Shown: piece by piece, positions 16,568-24,301 of the stretch
Position numbering within the stretch: the first letter of the stretch is position 1
How the letters are laid out: every line of letters starts with the position of its first letter
Origin: Nocardiopsis ganjiahuensis DSM 45031
GTDB taxonomy: Bacteria; Actinomycetota; Actinomycetes; Streptosporangiales; Streptosporangiaceae
Direction of reading: 5' to 3'
NCBI RefSeq assembly: GCF_000341085.1
Contig: NZ_ANBA01000009.1
Location: 1-64,000 of the forward strand
Length of the DNA: 64,000 bases
The notes under the pieces: model-generated
What the model was told of the DNA's origin: nothing
What the model saw: only the letters and a program-made list of their open reading frames with translations
Database searches by the model: none
Made by a program: the position numbers and the translations under genes

Positions 16568-18859
16568 GTGAAAGTGCGCAACCGAGCCCCAGGAGTCGCC
16601 CCAGCCCTCGAACCCGTGTCGGTCGTCGACACGCTGCACGGCCGTCCCGTACCCGACCCCTACCGCTGGCTGGAGACGGCTGACTCGCCCGAGACCCTGC
16701 GCTGGCTGGAGGAACGCGGCCGGGAGTACGAGCGGGAGGCGGCCGCCTGGCCGCTGCGCGAGCACCTGGCAGAACGCATCCGCGCGCTCGTGGCCACCGA
16801 CCTGTGGACCCCGCCGGTCCACCGGGCCGGGACCCTGTTCGGCACCGTGCGCCCCGCGGGCAGCGAGCACCCCCGCCTCGTCATGTGGCCCGGCGGCCCC
16901 GGTTCCCCCACCGGCAACGGTTCCGCGCGTTCCACCCCGGTCCCCCCACCCTTCCCTGCCGCGCACACCGTGTACGACCCCTGCGCCGAGGACCCCACCG
17001 GGCGGACCACCCTGGACGCCTGGGAACCCAGCCCCGACGGCCTCCTGGTCGCCCTCCAGACCTCCTCCGGCGGGGTGGAGCGCGGCGGTCTGCGCGTGGT
17101 CCGCGCGGGCACCGGCGATCCGGTCGGCCCGACCGTGCCCGGGGTCCGCTACTCCCACGTGGCCTGGCTGCCGGGGACGGAACGGTCCTTCTACTACGTG
17201 CGCCGCGACGGCGAGCAGGGAGTTCGCGGCGTGTGGCTGCGCCGGGTCGCGGACGGCGCCGAGACCCTCGTGTACTCCTGTGCCGCGGGCACCGTCCCGG
17301 GTGTGCGGGTGCTGGGCGGGCGGTGGCTGCTGGTCACCGAGAGCCACGGCACCGGGCACCGCACCGACCTGTGGTTGGCCGACCTGTCCGCCGGCCCGCC
17401 GGAACGGCCCGGGTTCCACCCGGTCCAGGTGGGGCCCGAGGCCGAGACCGAGGCGCGGTTGGGCCCGGACGGCCTGCTGTACCTGCGCACCACCCTGGAC
17501 GCGCCCCGCCGCCGGATCTGCGCGGTCGACCCGGGCGCGCCCCCGGCCGAGCTCTCACCCGGGCACTGGCGCGAGGTCGTCGCCGAGGACCCGGGGGCGA
17601 CCCTGGACGCCTTCTGCCCGCACCCGGGCCCGGACGGCCCGGCCCTGCTGGTGCTCCGCACCCGGCTGGGGATCAGCGAGGCCGCCGTCCACGACGCCGT
17701 CACCGGGGCCCGCGCCCGCACGGTGGACCTGCCCGGCGAGGGCATGGCCTCCGAGCCCGTCACGACCCCCGACGGCACCCTGTACCTGGGCTACGCGGAC
17801 GTGGCCACCCAGCAGCGGGTGCTGAGGCTGGCTCCCGGCCGGTACGAACCCGTGTTCTGGCCGCCTCCGGGAACGGCGGCCGGCACCGACACCACGCACT
17901 CGGGCCCCGCCCGCCCCGTCTCCGTGTCCCCGCCTCAGGCACGCCCCGCGGATCCGGCTGCTCCGGGCCCGGCCGGCTCCGGTTCGGCCACCACCGGTTC
18001 CGGGCGCGTTCCCCCGGCCGCCCCCACGGCCTCCCCCGCCGTGGTGCGGACCGTGGTGTGGTGCCGCTCCCAGGACGGCACCCGCGTCCCGGTCACCGTC
18101 TTCGACGCCACCGGCGGCTCCGCTCCGGGGCCGACCCTCCTGCACGCCTACGGCGGTTTCGGGCGCCCGCGCCAGTTCGGGTTCAGCGCGACCGTCCTCG
18201 CCTGGCTGCTGTCCGGCGGCCGGTACGCCGTGGCCCACGTGCGCGGCGGCGGCGACGCCGGACGCCGCTGGCACCTGGAGGGTTCGGGCCGCCACAAGCC
18301 GCGCGCGGTGGAGGACCTGGTGGCCGCCGCCGACACCCTGGTCGGCGCCGGGTGGTGCACCCGCGGCCAACTGTGCCTGTCCGGCGGATCGGCCGGCGGG
18401 ATGCTCGTGCTGGCCGCAGCCACCGCCCGACCCGACCTGTGCGCGGCGGTGATCGCCTCGGCCCCGCTCGCGGACATGGCCCGCTTCGAGCGCATGGGGC
18501 TGGGCCGCATGTGGACACGGGAGTTCGGTACCGCGGCCGACCCCGACGACTTCGCCGCCCTGATGTCCTATTCGCCCTACCACCGGGCGTTGGACAGCGC
18601 CCTGCGCACACCGGGGCTGCACCATCCCAGCGTCCTGCTCACCGGGTTCGACGGCGATACCCGGACCGACGCCGCCCACCCGCGCAAGATGTGCGCGGCG
18701 CTGCTGGCGGCCGCGGGCGGGGAAGCCGACCGACCGGCGGCCCTGCTCCGCTACGAGCGCGACGTCGGGCACGGCCCGCGCTCGGTGAGCAGGGCCGTGG
18801 GACTGGCCGCCGACGCACACGCGTTCGCGGCCCACCGGACGGGGCTGACCGGGCGCTGA
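16568..18859 (+). CDS. Prolyl oligopeptidase family serine peptidase (S9A)
   Basis: About 763 residues. The N-terminus (VVDTLHGRPVPDPYRWLE) and the following beta-propeller repeats are typical of POP. The alpha/beta-hydrolase domain has the nucleophile in GGSAGG (Ser608), the Asp in GFDGDTRTD and His735 in DVGHG. POP cleaves short peptides after proline, and a related enzyme matures class III lanthipeptides in Kribbella (FlaP), so a role in maturing the peptide encoded 59 nt downstream is possible. A Pro/Ser/Thr-rich linker of about 40 residues (near 435-480) joins propeller and hydrolase. No signal peptide, so cytoplasmic. The start is uncertain: GTG 16568 or TTG 16538, neither with a good RBS. 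Confidence 0.82.
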   Translation: MKVRNRAPGVAPALEPVSVVDTLHGRPVPDPYRWLETADSPETLRWLEERGREYEREAAAWPLREHLAERIRALVATDLWTPPVHRAGTLFGTVRPAGSEHPRLVMWPGGPGSPTGNGSARSTPVPPPFPAAHTVYDPCAEDPTGRTTLDAWEPSPDGLLVALQTSSGGVERGGLRVVRAGTGDPVGPTVPGVRYSHVAWLPGTERSFYYVRRDGEQGVRGVWLRRVADGAETLVYSCAAGTVPGVRVLGGRWLLVTESHGTGHRTDLWLADLSAGPPERPGFHPVQVGPEAETEARLGPDGLLYLRTTLDAPRRRICAVDPGAPPAELSPGHWREVVAEDPGATLDAFCPHPGPDGPALLVLRTRLGISEAAVHDAVTGARARTVDLPGEGMASEPVTTPDGTLYLGYADVATQQRVLRLAPGRYEPVFWPPPGTAAGTDTTHSGPARPVSVSPPQARPADPAAPGPAGSGSATTGSGRVPPAAPTASPAVVRTVVWCRSQDGTRVPVTVFDATGGSAPGPTLLHAYGGFGRPRQFGFSATVLAWLLSGGRYAVAHVRGGGDAGRRWHLEGSGRHKPRAVEDLVAAADTLVGAGWCTRGQLCLSGGSAGGMLVLAAATARPDLCAAVIASAPLADMARFERMGLGRMWTREFGTAADPDDFAALMSYSPYHRALDSALRTPGLHHPSVLLTGFDGDTRTDAAHPRKMCAALLAAAGGEADRPAALLRYERDVGHGPRSVSRAVGLAADAHAFAAHRTGLTGR

Positions 18860-18918
18860 CGGCGCACGGGAGAGTCCTGGTCAAGAGGATCAACGCAACA
18901 CAGAAAGCGAGGTGCGGT

Positions 18919-19026
18919 ATGGACCCCATCGAGGTTGAGGTCGAGGACCTGGCGGAGGTGACCTCCCGCGACATCACCGCGGGCGGCGACAGCGACGGCA
19001 CCGACTCCAGCTCGGACTTCATCTGA
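18919..19026 (+). CDS. 35-residue acidic peptide, candidate RiPP precursor
   Basis: A small gene with a clear RBS (GCGAGG 6 nt before the ATG) and its own terminator 6 nt after the stop. The product starts MDPIEVEVEDLAEVTS and ends DGTDSSSDFI. It has 11 acidic residues, one Arg, no Cys, Lys or aromatic residue other than a penultimate Phe. The first half resembles an amphipathic, acidic leader; the second half after AGG is a Ser/Thr/Asp-rich core. This organisation, between a prolyl oligopeptidase and a JmjC oxygenase gene, is that expected of a ribosomally made, modified peptide. I do not recognise it as a member of any described RiPP family, and no dedicated cyclase, radical-SAM enzyme or transporter is adjacent. 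Confidence 0.55.
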   Translation: MDPIEVEVEDLAEVTSRDITAGGDSDGTDSSSDFI

Positions 19027-19032
19027 TCCGGT

Positions 19033-19070
19033 CCCGCCCGGCCCGGCTGCCACGTCCCGGGCCGGGCGGG
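19033..19070 (+). terminator. Strong hairpin directly after the small peptide gene
   Basis: A perfect 14-bp GC stem (19033-19046 with 19057-19070) followed by TCCTTC. It lies between the peptide gene and the oxygenase gene, so it would keep peptide transcript high relative to enzyme, as at many precursor-peptide genes. Confidence 0.85.
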
Positions 19071-19209
19071 TCCTTCACCCCCGCACCCTCCCGACGTGGC
19101 CCCGCCCCTGGCCCCGGGACCCCCGGCAGACCCCTGAGCCCACGTGCTCCCCGAGCAGTCCGCGCGCCCTCCCGAACCGTCCCGCCGTACCACCCCGGAA
19201 AGGACAGCC

Positions 19210-20424
19210 GTGACCGATCCCGGCAGCCTGTTCACCCGAACCCTGTGCGACGTCGTGGGCCGCGACGCCCTGACCACCCGGCTCTCCGAGGAGTTCGTCT
19301 TCGCCGACCTGGGCGCGGACGCCGTGCGCTCGCTCCTGACCTTCGACGACCTCAACTCGCTGCTGGCCACGTGCGCCCCGGAGCCGCCCCGCCTGCGGCT
19401 GCACCGGGACGGGTCTCCGGTGCCGCTGGACCGCTACACAGAGCAGGGCACCGCCTCGCGGACCGCGCGGCGGATCGTGCGCCCGGAGTCGCTGTACCGG
19501 GAACTGCGCGCCGGGGCGAGCCTGGTGCTGGACGGCATGGACCGGATGCACCCGCCGGTCGGCGCGGCCGCCGACGACCTCATGCGGCTGACCCGGGAGC
19601 GCACGCAGGCCAACCTGTACCTGATCTGGGGTGAGTCCCGGGGGTTCGACACCCACTGGGACGACCACGACACGGTGATCGTCCAGGTGGAGGGGACCAA
19701 GCACTGGCAGGTGCACGGGCCGGGTTCGCGCCCCTACCCGATGAAGAACGACACCGACCACGCCCACACCCCGCCCCGGGACGCCGACGGCGAGCTGCAC
19801 ATGGTGTGGCAGGGGGTGCTGCGGCCCGGCCAGGTGATCCACGTGCCGCGCGGCTGGTGGCACACGGTGACCGGGACCGGTGAGGTGAGCATGCACCTGA
19901 CCTTCGGTTTCACCCGGGCGACCGGGGTCGACTGGGCGGATACCCTGGTGCGTCGGCTGTTCGAGCAGGAGGTCTTCCGGCAGGACCTGCCCCGGTTCGC
20001 CGAACCGGACACGCGCCGCAAGCATCGGCACGAGCTGGTGGCCCGCATCACGGAGCTGGCCGAGAGCCTGGACCTGGACGCCTTCCTCGCCGAACGGGAC
20101 GCGCGCTTCCCCCGCCGGACCTCGTTCTCACTGCCCTGGGCGGTGGAGGACGGCGCGCCGCCCGCCGACGCCCTGGTGGAGTTCGTACCGATCCTGCCCC
20201 CGCCCCTGGAGCACGAGGGCGAGGGCGAGGAGGCCAGGGTGGCGCTCACCGTGGCCGGCAAGCGGTACCGGCTCCCCGTGGTGACGGAACCGGTCCTGGA
20301 GGCCATCGCCGAGCACCGGGAACTGTCGGTCGCGGAGCTGGCCGACCGCGCGGGCGTGGCGGTGGAGGTGTGCGCCCAGGTGGTGGCCGCGCTGAGCCGC
20401 CACCACCTGGTCCTGGTGCGCTGA
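19210..20424 (+). CDS. JmjC/cupin-4 family Fe(II)/2-oxoglutarate oxygenase
   Basis: A 404-residue protein related to ribosomal oxygenases (YcfD/ROXA, NO66, MINA53). The metal triad is visible as His149-x-Asp151 in DTHWDDHD and His218 in RGWWHTVTG, with IVQVEGTKHWQVHGPG between them. A central helical dimerisation segment follows, and the C-terminal 70 residues look like a winged helix (ITEP-like strand, then ELSVAELADRAGVAVEVCAQVVAAL). Relatives hydroxylate Arg, His or Asn/Asp side chains. The substrate here is unknown; the adjacent peptide is the obvious candidate, ribosomal protein the alternative. GTG start with AAAGGAC upstream. Confidence 0.78.
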   Translation: MTDPGSLFTRTLCDVVGRDALTTRLSEEFVFADLGADAVRSLLTFDDLNSLLATCAPEPPRLRLHRDGSPVPLDRYTEQGTASRTARRIVRPESLYRELRAGASLVLDGMDRMHPPVGAAADDLMRLTRERTQANLYLIWGESRGFDTHWDDHDTVIVQVEGTKHWQVHGPGSRPYPMKNDTDHAHTPPRDADGELHMVWQGVLRPGQVIHVPRGWWHTVTGTGEVSMHLTFGFTRATGVDWADTLVRRLFEQEVFRQDLPRFAEPDTRRKHRHELVARITELAESLDLDAFLAERDARFPRRTSFSLPWAVEDGAPPADALVEFVPILPPPLEHEGEGEEARVALTVAGKRYRLPVVTEPVLEAIAEHRELSVAELADRAGVAVEVCAQVVAALSRHHLVLVR

Positions 20425-20570: not shown

Positions 20571-21362
20571 TCAGCGCGGTCGGCCCGCCGACGGCGCCCC
20601 ACCGCGGGCGCGCACGTAGGCCTCCACACCGTCCAGGATGCGCTGGACGGGGAAGTGCAGGCCCTCCGGCAGGTCGGCGTCCGGCGGCCCCTCCTCGAAG
20701 GTGCCCGCGTCGATGGTTCCCGTGATCGTCGGGAACTCCTGCGGGTCGAGGACCCGGCGCAGGCCCGCCAACCACTCCCGCTCGGACTCCTCCAGGGGGA
20801 CACCGCTCTTCTGCGCGGCGAGCTTCCTGTCGTGGTCCATGCGGAGCACGTTGTGCAGGGTGGTGTTGAGCAGCAACAGGATCTGGAGCGACTCGGCCGG
20901 GGTGAGACCGGAGGCGTTGAGTTCGCGTAGGCCCGCCTCCATCCACCTGAGCCCGTTGGGCCCGGCGGGCGGGCCGAACTTCGAGATGTGGACGTACCAG
21001 GGGTGTTCCCGGTACTGGTCGACCACCCCCTGACACCACGCCTCGATTCCGGCCCGCCAGTCGCCGTCGGTGCGCGGCCCCGGCGGGTGTTCGGACATGG
21101 CGACGTCCCACATGAGGGTGACCAGGTCGTCCTTGCTGTCCACGTGCCGGTACAGGGACATGGTCGTGTACCCGAGCCGCTCGGCCACGCGCTGCATGGA
21201 GACGGCGTCCAGCCCCTCGGTGTCGGCCAGGGCGATGGCGGCGTCGACGATCGCCGCACGGCTGAGCTTGGGCTTGGGCCCGCGCCTGCCTCCCTCCCGC
21301 AGCCCCCACAGGAGTTCGACCTCGCGGGTGACCCCGGTCGTCGGCTGTTGTTCGCTCGTCAT
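20571..21362 (-). CDS. TetR/AcrR-family transcriptional regulator
   Basis: A 263-residue repressor. Residues about 35-80 form the HTH (SRAAIVDAAIALADTEGLDAVSMQRVAERLG, YTTMSLYRHVDSKDDLVTLM), and the C-terminal part matches the TetR_C_1 ligand-binding type, as in TetR itself and many actinobacterial relatives. The ATG at 21362 is chosen over upstream open frame because the upstream extension is the promoter region. It is divergent from the DUF2306 gene with 134 bp between them, which hold inverted repeats suited to be its operator. It probably represses the neighbouring membrane protein genes and itself. Confidence 0.85.
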   Translation of the reverse strand: MTSEQQPTTGVTREVELLWGLREGGRRGPKPKLSRAAIVDAAIALADTEGLDAVSMQRVAERLGYTTMSLYRHVDSKDDLVTLMWDVAMSEHPPGPRTDGDWRAGIEAWCQGVVDQYREHPWYVHISKFGPPAGPNGLRWMEAGLRELNASGLTPAESLQILLLLNTTLHNVLRMDHDRKLAAQKSGVPLEESEREWLAGLRRVLDPQEFPTITGTIDAGTFEEGPPDADLPEGLHFPVQRILDGVEAYVRARGGAPSAGRPR

Positions 21363-21421
21363 ACTCCACCAGTCGTCGGCGCGGCCCGTGCGCGAACCGC
21401 GGCTCCGGCCCGCTTTCTCGG

Positions 21422-21482
21422 TTGACACCCATCCTAGAACTGTGTATTGCTTAAACTGTAACGTGTAGGCGATACACAGTTT
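21422..21482 (+). promoter_or_regulatory. Promoter and inverted-repeat operator, first DUF2306 gene
   Basis: TTGACA (21422-21427) and TATTGC (21445-21450) are 17 bp apart. Overlapping and following it, AACTGTGTAT (21438-21447) and ATACACAGTT (21472-21481) are a perfect 10-bp inverted repeat, with a third half-site AAACTGT at 21453-21459. These sit between the divergent TetR and DUF2306 genes and are likely TetR sites. Confidence 0.6.
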
Positions 21483-21496
21483 GCGAGGTACGCGAT

Positions 21497-22252
21497 ATGA
21501 CTCGCCCCGCCACCGACTCATCCCGCCCCGCGGCGACCCCGCCCGCCGGCACCGCGCCGCGGCGCACGCCCGCGAAACCCCCGCCCGTCCGCTGGTGGGA
21601 GCGGCCCTGGATCCTGCCGCTGGCCCTGTTCAGCGCCGCGTTCCTGCTCTTCGCCGTCCCGCCCTACCTGAGCCTGGATCCGGCCGATTCACGCCTGCCG
21701 GTTCCGGAGAGCCCTTCCTGGTACTTTCCGGCACTCGTCGTCCACGTCTTCGGCGGAGCACTGATCACACTGCTGGTGATCCTCCAGGTGTGGCCGTGGC
21801 TGCGCACCCGCCACCCGGCCGTGCACCGCTGGAGCGGACGGGTGTACGTCCTGGCAGGGCTCCCCCTCGTCGGAGTTCCGGCCGTGCTCGTCGCACCCTT
21901 CGGCGAGGCCGGCGCGAGCGCTCAGATCAGCGGCCTCGTCTGGGCCGCACTGTGGTCGGCCTTCACGGTCCTCGGCTACGTGATGGCGCGCCGACGGCGG
22001 TTCGCCGCCCACCGCGAGTGGATGCTGCGCAGCTTCGCCCTGGTCTACGGCATCGCGTTCAACCGCGTACTGCACGTCCTCCTCCTGGTGATCACGGCAC
22101 CCCGGGTGGACACGGTCCACGGAGGCGACTTCGAGGCGATGTCGCTCGATCTCGGCGCCGCGTCGGGCTTCCTCTCGTGGATCCTGCCCCTGCTGTTCGT
22201 GGAGTGGTGGCTCCAGTACCGCAAGCCCCGCCGCCGCGCCCGTCAGCGCTGA
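21497..22252 (+). CDS. DUF2306 membrane protein, copy 1
   Basis: A 251-residue integral membrane protein. After a Pro-rich cytosolic N-terminus (TPAKPPPVRWWERPWILPLAL) there are seven or so hydrophobic segments. HVFGGALITLL, HRWSGRVYV and RRRRFAAHREWMLRSFAL carry the conserved His/Arg residues of the DUF2306 family, which resembles haem- or quinone-linked membrane proteins but has no assigned function. Expressed from the TetR-associated promoter; ends 135 bp before its paralogue. Confidence 0.75.
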   Translation: MTRPATDSSRPAATPPAGTAPRRTPAKPPPVRWWERPWILPLALFSAAFLLFAVPPYLSLDPADSRLPVPESPSWYFPALVVHVFGGALITLLVILQVWPWLRTRHPAVHRWSGRVYVLAGLPLVGVPAVLVAPFGEAGASAQISGLVWAALWSAFTVLGYVMARRRRFAAHREWMLRSFALVYGIAFNRVLHVLLLVITAPRVDTVHGGDFEAMSLDLGAASGFLSWILPLLFVEWWLQYRKPRRRARQR

Positions 22253-22387: not shown

Positions 22388-23200
22388 ATGACTCGACTGC
22401 CCTCCGGCTCGGGAGACCGCTCGGCATCCCCGCCCACCGTCGCCGCGCCGCAGCGCACACCCGCGAAACCCCCGCCCGTCCGCTGGTGGCAGCGGCCGTG
22501 GATCCTGCCGCTGGCCCTGCTCACCCTCGTCTTCCTGGCCTTCAGCGTCCCGCCCTACCTGAACCTGGACCCCGCCACCGCGCCGATCCCGATCCGGCCC
22601 GAACCCGCCTGGTACCACCCCCTGCTCCTGTCGCACATCTTCGGCGGAGCCGTGCTGATGGTGGTGGCGATCGGCCAGGTATGGCCGTGGCTGCGCCGTC
22701 GCCGCCCGGCCCTGCACCGCTGGAGCGGACGCGTCTACGTCTTCTTCGGCGTTCCGTTCGTGGGCGTCCCGGCGCTGCTGATCGCGCCGCTGAGCAACGG
22801 CCCCCTCGCCATCGGCGTGAACAACGTCGCCTGGGCCGTGGGATGGCTCGCCTTCGTCCTGCTCGGGTACGCCGCCGCCCGACGGCGCCGGTTCGACCGC
22901 CACCGGGAGTGGATGCTGCGCAGCGTGGTCCTGCTCTACGGCGTGGCCCTGGCCAGGTTCACCATCATCTTCCCGATCGCGATCCTCATGCCGTGGATCG
23001 ACACCCGCTACGAGGGCGGCGCCTGGGCGCTGGCCGCGGACCTGGGCCCGAACTCGCTCCTGATCAACACGGTCCTGCCGCTGCTGGCTCTCGAGTGGTG
23101 GTTCAAGTACCGCAAGCCCCGCCGCCGGAACCGACCGGCCCGGGCCACCGGCAAGGACACCGTCTCGCCCGCCACACCCGCCCCAACACACACGGCCTGA
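22388..23200 (+). CDS. DUF2306 membrane protein, copy 2
   Basis: A 270-residue paralogue of the preceding gene. The N-terminus (TPAKPPPVRWWQRPWILPLAL), HIFGGAVLMVV, HRWSGRVYV and RRRRFDRHREWMLRS segments align directly with copy 1, while the periplasmic loop and C-terminal tail differ. The tail is about 20 residues longer. Same family and unknown function. Retained His and Arg residues argue that both copies are under selection. Confidence 0.75.
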   Translation: MTRLPSGSGDRSASPPTVAAPQRTPAKPPPVRWWQRPWILPLALLTLVFLAFSVPPYLNLDPATAPIPIRPEPAWYHPLLLSHIFGGAVLMVVAIGQVWPWLRRRRPALHRWSGRVYVFFGVPFVGVPALLIAPLSNGPLAIGVNNVAWAVGWLAFVLLGYAAARRRRFDRHREWMLRSVVLLYGVALARFTIIFPIAILMPWIDTRYEGGAWALAADLGPNSLLINTVLPLLALEWWFKYRKPRRRNRPARATGKDTVSPATPAPTHTA

Positions 23201-23332: not shown

Positions 23333-23351
23333 TTAGGGTAGCCTCACTTAA
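23333..23351 (+). promoter_or_regulatory. Iron box (DtxR/IdeR-type operator)
   Basis: TTAGGGTAGCCTCACTTAA is a close match to the actinobacterial iron-box consensus (TTAGGTTAGGCTAACCTAA). It stands about 90 bp before the ferric reductase gene, so that gene should be repressed by Fe(II)-bound DtxR/IdeR and induced by iron starvation. Confidence 0.85.
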
Positions 23352-23440: not shown

Positions 23441-24301
23441 GTGACTCCAGATCCGCTCGACGCTCTCCACGGTGTCTGCGCGCGGCTGAAGTTCGCGCCC
23501 CTGCCCGAGACCACCGGCCCCGGCCGGCTGCGCAGTCGCCCCGCGGACGGCACCCAACGGCACACCGTCACCTCGATGACCGGCCACGGCTGGCTCCCGG
23601 TCCTGTTCGACAAGCTCCAGACCGAGCACGGCCCCGGCCACCGGCTCCCCGCCGCCACCAACTTCCTGCGGGTCACCCTGCGCGAACCCATCTTCATGGT
23701 GGCCGCCTCCCTGTACCTGACCGGCCGCGGCCCGCTGCTCACCCCGGACTCCCTCCACCTGCCCTGGGACACCGCCCGATCCAGGTTCGGCACCCCCGCC
23801 GTCACCGGCGTCCGCACCGTGGTGCTGCCCGACGACCCCGCGGCCGACCACCCGGACACCGTGGTCGCCCGCGACGAGGACGAGCAGCTGCGTCTGACCG
23901 CCGAAGGGCTGTTCGCCACCTTCGAGCCGCTCATCGACGCCCTGCACGCGCACTCGCGGGCCGGAAAGCGCACCCTGTGGGGCTGGGTGCTCGACACCCT
24001 GCACTTCTACATGCTCAACCCGGCCCGCTACCTGGGCCAGGACGCCGAGCAGGCCTGGGAGCTGGCCACCCGGCTCGGTGACGCGGTGGTCGCCGCGGGC
24101 GCCGTCACACGCAAACGCCCGCGCCTGTTCCCGTTCGCCCCGGAGGACCCCCGGGGCACGTGGGCGGTCCGGGGCACCTGCTGCTTCGACTACAAGGGCG
24201 ACCCGGAGCACGGCTACTGCACCACCTGCCCGCTCAAGTGCGACAGCGAACGCAAGGAGGCCCTGTCGGAGTGGCTGCGCGATCCCGCGCTGGCCCCCTG
24301 A
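23441..24301 (+). CDS. FhuF-like ferric siderophore reductase
   Basis: A 286-residue protein. The C-terminal cluster motif is Cys247-Cys248-x11-Cys260-x2-Cys263, the atypical CC...CxxC [2Fe-2S] ligand set of FhuF, which reduces Fe(III) in hydroxamate siderophores in the cytoplasm. The spacing has one residue more between the pairs than E. coli FhuF. TNFLRVTLREP and LDTLHFYMLNPARYLG are typical of the ferric reductase-like domain. GTG start with GAAGGG upstream. Under the iron box described above; no siderophore genes adjoin it. Confidence 0.85.
   Translation: MTPDPLDALHGVCARLKFAPLPETTGPGRLRSRPADGTQRHTVTSMTGHGWLPVLFDKLQTEHGPGHRLPAATNFLRVTLREPIFMVAASLYLTGRGPLLTPDSLHLPWDTARSRFGTPAVTGVRTVVLPDDPAADHPDTVVARDEDEQLRLTAEGLFATFEPLIDALHAHSRAGKRTLWGWVLDTLHFYMLNPARYLGQDAEQAWELATRLGDAVVAAGAVTRKRPRLFPFAPEDPRGTWAVRGTCCFDYKGDPEHGYCTTCPLKCDSERKEALSEWLRDPALAP

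Follow-up and report, generated by a model that had tools for sequence, protein, structure and literature searches.

The window analysed here is a stretch of 64,000 nucleotides from Nocardiopsis ganjiahuensis DSM 45031, lying in contig C9 of a host assembly of 7.35 Mb in 54 contigs, and it holds three co-directional genes on the forward strand. The first encodes a peptidase of the S9A prolyl-oligopeptidase family (POP, 16568..18859), the second a peptide of 35 amino acids (18919..19026), and the third a JmjC-type Fe(II)/2-oxoglutarate oxygenase of 404 amino acids with a GTG start, which belongs to PF08007 and has the fold of the ribosomal oxygenases (ROX; 19210..20424). The genes are separated by 59 nt and 183 nt, and these spacings, like the gene coordinates, agree with the initial annotation, which had been made from the sequence alone and had proposed a precursor of a ribosomally synthesised and post-translationally modified peptide (RiPP) that may be hydroxylated at Asp or Ser/Thr by the oxygenase and is cleaved by the POP. 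Judged from sequence and predicted structure, we consider it likely that the peptide serves as precursor for a RiPP-type product and is modified by the JmjC protein. This pairing is supported by the co-occurrence of related genes far beyond the genus, by the correspondence between JmjC clade and precursor type, and by a docking of the leader in AlphaFold2 (AF2) models that depends on the winged helix of the enzyme. The precursor reading is supported further by coding selection on the peptide, by the fixed order POP-peptide-JmjC, and by the same tail motif preceding JmjC genes of Pseudonocardia that have no POP. The earlier proposal has thus been largely right as regards precursor and oxygenase; the role assigned to the POP is poorly supported, and the system extends beyond the three genes.

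The precursor gene (MDPIEVEVEDLAEVTSRDITAGGDSDGTDSSSDFI, ATG 18919 to TGA 19026) is preceded by a ribosome-binding site GAGG (18909..18912), 6 nt before the start codon, and GAGG or a similar purine run is also present in the listed relatives. Its product can be divided into a leader part (residues 1-17, 18919..18969), which ends in an invariant Arg, and a core part (residues 18-35, 18970..19023) with a DSDGTD motif and a DFI end, the boundary probably lying after residue 17. A perfect hairpin of 14 bp without a U-tract (19033..19070) is located between the precursor and oxygenase genes, and the C-terminal winged helix of the oxygenase (20221..20421) is the candidate leader-binding module.

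Conservation of the peptide gene

The peptide has been found at E ≤ 1e-10 in 42 of 200 genomes of the family (own genome counted), with up to 100% identity in another genus. Any match at all was obtained in 90 genomes, and in the 48 beyond these 42 the best E is above 0.2, i.e., chance level. The search for the small open reading frame (ORF) beside JmjC/POP pairs, which the initial annotation had called for, has yielded 72 loci, mostly of Nocardiopsaceae; they come from two sources, so that some species may be counted twice, and all 72 fitted the pattern used. A POP lies 5' of the peptide on the same strand in 72/72, and a JmjC gene follows in 70/72 by a strict count or in 71/72 with one locus in which the match overlaps (L046), the last sequence (L004) ending just after the peptide. 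In distant genera the triad is kept, the ABC and TspO genes that flank it in Nocardiopsis have not been seen, and TetR and DUF2306 genes are present in some loci only. One record titled Glycomyces fuscus (L039) contains a typical Nocardiopsis locus with the same flanking genes and a JmjC 80% identical, and this genome is probably mislabelled.

Across the last 29 codons, the 72 loci comprise 51 distinct DNA and 26 distinct protein sequences, with proportions of synonymous (pS) and non-synonymous (pN) differences of 0.286 and 0.044 and a pN/pS ratio of 0.155; judged from these alleles, the peptide gene is under purifying selection. Because of this ratio, the 42 genomes and the 72 loci, it cannot be regarded as a chance ORF. 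Nineteen positions are constant across the 51 alleles, including R17, D18, D24, D26, G27, D29, S31, S32, D33, F34 and I35, and peptide identity amounts to 78-100% where the best POP pieces reach 45-79% and the best JmjC pieces 54-91%. A short precursor gene under coding selection that adjoins an oxygenase is what RiPP systems generally present, and modification of the peptide would follow by inference from the sequences. A variable core, as expected in the initial annotation, has not been seen inside the triad family; variation occurs between JmjC clades. The peptide matches no family in Pfam or NCBIfam; seven of eight other precursors are likewise without an NCBIfam match, and the eighth gives a sub-threshold match to MacP (E 0.08).

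The oxygenase and its pairing with precursor types

The oxygenase shows the HxD...H iron triad and the domain order of the ROX enzymes. H149, D151 and H218, which had been noticed as an intact triad from the single sequence, are invariant in an alignment of 25 JmjC rows, as is K164; along its entire length, winged helix included, the enzyme agrees with NO66, MINA53 and YcfD in fold and domain order. In an AF2 model of the fusion with the peptide, leader residues 1-10 reach a predicted local distance difference test (pLDDT) value of 88, residues 1-14 are docked, and residues 7-10 form a strand, the winged helix showing β3-α3 topology; when the winged helix is deleted, the leader pLDDT falls to 29 and no strand is formed. 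The leader is thus predicted to dock confidently only with the C-terminal winged helix present. The winged-helix domains give weak Pfam matches to ROXA-like_wH and HTH. VIA-align lists no structure of a RiPP recognition element (RRE) for the fusion model, a result of little weight, since the match list is taken up by the JmjC fold.

Relatives of the pair occur well outside Nocardiopsaceae. A profile of 25 JmjC proteins has retrieved matches in 48 of 396 phylum genomes (E ≤ 1e-30) and in 67 of 394 class genomes (E ≤ 1e-50), own genome and triad holders counted in both. In two Pseudonocardia genomes, where the JmjC is 49-50% identical and no POP has been found in the fetched 5-kb flanks, MADQDTLLLGIEVDSVVARRETNGDNDGSDLHSDFI and a similar peptide stand directly 5' of the JmjC gene, the tail motif DNDGSD..SDF[IV] being kept and the leader changed; in a distant metagenome-derived genome, ...LLVSVEEIDSAHDRATGSLTDNDGND precedes the JmjC gene. 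The own genome (G000) carries a second pair in contig C11 (G000:C11:66298-67425, L110), with MDSTTQYADDDLVLAVEDIAAVRSRAEQPSDGGSTGRGDTNDNGLY before the JmjC gene and an aldo/keto reductase gene after it. Among 80 non-triad JmjC loci, a small Asp/Gly-rich ORF lies 5' of the JmjC gene in 38 by strict and in 58 or 64 by looser criteria, compared with 1, 1 and 3 of 80 in antisense and 2, 6 and 10 of 190 upstream of other genes. The Arg at R17 is invariant in 26 aligned precursors, which share a hydrophobic/acidic leader followed by an Asp/Gly/Ser/Thr-rich tail. At E ≤ 1, the profile built from them matches 163 of 2214 candidate database proteins, and within the 120 of these that were listed, every named one is called hypothetical or uncharacterized.

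When 83 JmjC rows are placed in a quick maximum-likelihood tree, the precursor labels, which were given by eye, require 10 changes across 11 groups, i.e., the minimum, whereas shuffled labels need 53.4 on average and are never as low (0/200), a difference that is inflated by relatedness. Some inner branches are weak (SH-aLRT 68 for the triad group, 33 for the SDSDGSDG group), and several long-branch rows are unsure. Paralogues within one genome carry more weight: they have been found in separate clades, each with the matching precursor, in G000 (L001, L110), G884 (L155, L175), G608 (L165, L166), G718 (L163, L172) and G551 (L111, L112, the former labelled by its tail, as no start codon was seen). 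As far as these sequences go, JmjC phylogeny tracks precursor type, paralogues in one genome included, and related pairs appear to be widespread in Actinobacteriota, where an aldo/keto reductase or a sucrase/ferredoxin-like (Suc_Fer-like) protein frequently comes next. The former lies 3' of the JmjC gene in 8/8, 5/6, 6/9 and 5/8 loci of four other clades, the last two by weak similarity, and was checked with Pfam in L110, L157, L163 and L172; the latter is found there in 17/24 and 4/5 loci of the repeat clades.

These repeat clades contain a second large precursor type, made of repeats such as GEGTADGGSNPEGHDGGADGTA (families f4, f9, f99 and others), which stands 5' of the JmjC gene in L086-L090, L094, L101, L102, L106 and L176-L191, frequently with a Suc_Fer-like gene following. 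In L078 (4797-7285 and beyond) and L079 (5010-8843), a JmjC protein that is more distantly related (about 37% identity) lies beside a YcaO protein (PF02624, 3e-54 in L079), an MFS transporter by appearance, and a peptide containing two repeats with Cys (..DEQFVLNNCVSAYL..EEFVVDNCVAAYLS); by sequence, these two loci would represent a separate YcaO-type RiPP cluster.

In the mechanism that we propose for the precursor and its oxygenase, the leader, a hydrophobic/acidic strand ending in the invariant Arg, is predicted to add as a β strand to the winged helix, which would serve as an RRE-like module, and the tethered Asp/Gly/Ser-rich tail would reach the Fe(II)/2-oxoglutarate centre and be oxidised. 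The target would most likely be Asp, by β-hydroxylation in D-x-D-G-[S/T/N]-D.

Several points weigh against this reading. The two AF2 runs used different alignments (68 and 44 rows with the same 11 fused rows), and docking has been judged from pLDDT and strand without coordinates, so that the contact between leader and helix itself has not been seen; the core is left unplaced (residues 15-57, pLDDT below 50). PqqD is absent among the 25 commonest of the 49 Pfam families matched by 44 winged-helix domains. The criteria for the Asp/Gly-rich ORF were set after examples had been seen, and even the loosest of them leaves out 16 of the 80 loci; by eye, a repeat-type ORF is visible in nine of these and not in the other seven. 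The JmjC genes for which neither the criteria nor inspection by eye gave an upstream precursor are those of L078 and L079 (the YcaO cluster), L081/L111, L084/L116, L103, L113 and L173; L081/L111 has a tail GKGDGND with no start codon seen, and in L103 the acidic ORF is of another kind. Among the nearest neighbours that were clustered, neither an exporter nor an immunity gene has been found. In addition, the ROX relatives hydroxylate ribosomal proteins, and by analogy the JmjC protein here could do both.

Alternative explanations and neighbouring genes

The likeness to NO66, MINA53 and YcfD, which covers fold and domain order of the whole enzyme and includes the winged helix, would also be accounted for if the JmjC protein were a ribosomal oxygenase of their type and the peptide an independent small protein, acting as its regulator or sharing its regulation. 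Such an enzyme needs no adjoining peptide gene, whereas here the JmjC clade predicts the peptide and paralogues that share a genome are each paired with the corresponding type of peptide, which renders this explanation improbable. The succession of a short ORF and a conserved hairpin recalls instead a leader-peptide attenuator of the JmjC gene with the hairpin as switch. Of 54 distinct sequences downstream of the peptide gene, 36 contain a perfectly paired stem of 9 bp or more, and mean stem length is 10.6 bp, compared with 5.6 in shuffles, so the 14-bp structure which the initial annotation had called a terminator is real and conserved; the label itself is unproven, because the U-tract is absent and a terminator scan has returned 0 sites, and a classical terminator has been set aside on the former ground. 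The attenuator is rejected on the pN/pS of 0.155 with free synonymous change, and related peptides occur in other contexts with other spacing and the hairpin lacks a U-tract, which leaves it with hardly any probability. For the precursor and its oxygenase, the hairpin may hold the peptide transcript above the level of the enzyme transcript. A possible but doubtful extension is that the POP matures the peptide, as its peptidase or macrocyclase. POP-family enzymes such as peptide cyclase 1 and OphP process or cyclise RiPPs, both are among its PDB relatives, and its co-location is constant (72/72). The protein has the β-propeller and Ser-Asp-His features of S9A (Pfam Peptidase_S9_N 1.3e-33, Peptidase_S9 1.2e-32; S608, D697 and H735 aligned to 2bkl, where D697 is the residue that we take to be the catalytic Asp), and prolyl endopeptidases rank first in PDB, with 2bkl as the best (E 4.5e-73). 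The Trp at the position which we presume to be S1 is retained in the alignment to 2bkl and thus favours post-Pro specificity over a cut at the conserved Arg. An oligopeptidase-B-like cut after this Arg has been dismissed on an NCBIfam match of 88 bits against a cut-off of 1313 and on the PDB ranking. Among the 72 peptides, none has a Pro in the last 18 residues, and hence at the leader/core junction, and three have no Pro at all; a post-proline cut can therefore not part leader from core. A POP match at E ≤ 1e-10 is also absent from all 80 non-triad JmjC loci (fetched DNA, many with only 1.5-2.5 kb per side), so that by sequence the POP does not appear to be a general part of the system. In the form proposed in the initial annotation, the cleavage is not supported. 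Nocardiopsaceae may have gained it, perhaps to trim or clear the modified peptide.

A further explanation concerns the product, which might be a ribosomally made metal chelator, i.e., a siderophore or metal-buffering peptide with β-hydroxy-Asp residues; the FhuF-type 2Fe-2S protein encoded downstream (23441..24301, forward strand; PF11575 1e-6, above the cut-off, and PF06276 below it) would reduce or recycle it. β-Hydroxy-Asp is a ligand of Fe(III). Of the 43 triad-type loci, 38 have a FhuF-type gene, and four of the remaining five are loci that end early; the gene lies about 150-290 bp behind the JmjC gene on the same strand in L056, L060, L061, L062, L066 and L069, and in the distant metagenome-derived locus L077 a FhuF-like gene (36% identical) stands beside the pair. 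The window carries an iron-box-like site (TTAAGTGAGGCTACCCTAA, 23333..23351, reverse strand) with 3 mismatches to the DmdR/IdeR consensus as we take it to be, found 0 times in 100 shuffles. In 26 of the 38 relatives, a site with at most 3 mismatches stands 79-124 bp before the FhuF-like gene; in L077 the site in this place fits the consensus better (2 mismatches), and one more site lies elsewhere in L069. A siderophore-type binding protein (Peripla_BP_2) is encoded directly behind the JmjC gene of Pseudonocardia acaciae (L074, 6282-7295), and the Suc_Fer-like neighbours of other clades fit as well. Against this stand the 12/38 relatives without a site and the placement of the site in front of the FhuF gene, since in the FhuF-bearing loci scanned the POP, peptide and JmjC genes are not preceded by any site within 3 mismatches; the FhuF match of L077 falls below the Pfam cut-off, no exporter or receptor has been seen, and the FhuF gene may be a remnant of synteny or supply iron for any Fe enzyme. 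We consider a chelator unlikely. The metallophore is the boldest reading, prompted by the FhuF-type gene as a frequent neighbour, and in its full form it is a decidedly speculative one: ribosomal peptides throughout the phylum would be converted by a ROX-fold JmjC with built-in RRE into β-hydroxy-aspartyl metal ligands from DxDG[S/T/N]D tails (siderophore- or calcium-antibiotic-like), coupled to FhuF-type reduction, and the near-invariant Nocardiopsaceae peptide would be a physiological metallophore or cofactor, not an antibiotic.

Between the JmjC and FhuF-like genes of the window, two adjacent genes for DUF2306 membrane proteins (21497-22252 and 22388-23200) have likely arisen by tandem duplication, and a TetR regulator gene on the reverse strand (20571-21521) adjoins the first of them.

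Relation to known systems

The ROX oxygenases NO66, MINA53 and YcfD share fold, catalytic residues and winged helix with the JmjC protein, but the substrates in their PDB titles are His or Arg residues of ribosomal proteins, whereas here each enzyme has its own adjoining peptide. PqqA and MftA, the invariant precursors of cofactor-type RiPPs, resemble the peptide in being short and almost invariant across genera; here, no radical SAM enzyme or PqqD match has been found among the Pfam-scanned neighbouring proteins, and no cofactor is known for the system. The precursor family has not been found described in the literature searched, a search that subscription papers mostly fell outside. Xia et al. 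reportedly described in 2025 macrocyclisation by 2-oxoglutarate dioxygenases in RiPPs, which could bear most on novelty here, and Kim et al., also in 2025, are said to have described the conversion of Asp to aminomalonate, which could bear on it too.

According to the accessible parts of two papers, BipG and PbsQ are JmjC hydroxylases of biphenomycin-type RiPPs with ornithine as the reported residue, and their clusters hold a multinuclear non-haem iron-dependent oxidase (MNIO), a B12-radical SAM enzyme and an arginase (PMC12707348, PMC12257519). These systems, with BpmG, whose hydroxylation is predicted, share with the present one a JmjC or cupin-like 2-oxoglutarate enzyme acting on a residue of a RiPP precursor. 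They differ in that the JmjC here is the only modifying enzyme seen, that the Asp-rich core has F34 as its sole aromatic residue and no FRF-type motif, and that no MNIO or B12-radical SAM enzyme is present among the neighbours scanned with Pfam, which do not comprise every ORF. RRE-like β3-α3 folds fused to PF08007 JmjC domains, with bacterial homologues in "RiPP-like genomic contexts", have been reported in 2025 (PMC12710340); the passage available there gives no precursors, Asp-rich core or Nocardiopsaceae triad. Nitrilobacillins share the proposed Asp β-hydroxylation in a RiPP, but in their case the enzyme is an MNIO acting with a partner protein and not a JmjC (PMC13060819). Hydroxylation of RiPPs by JmjC enzymes is already known; an Asp/Gly-rich precursor family with its own JmjC is apparently undescribed. 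If the proposed pairing is true, it would define a widespread RiPP family by a single JmjC enzyme, point to a function for many of the actinobacterial proteins in PF08007 whose fold resembles that of ribosomal oxygenases, and connect the RiPP recognition element with the winged helix of ROX enzymes.

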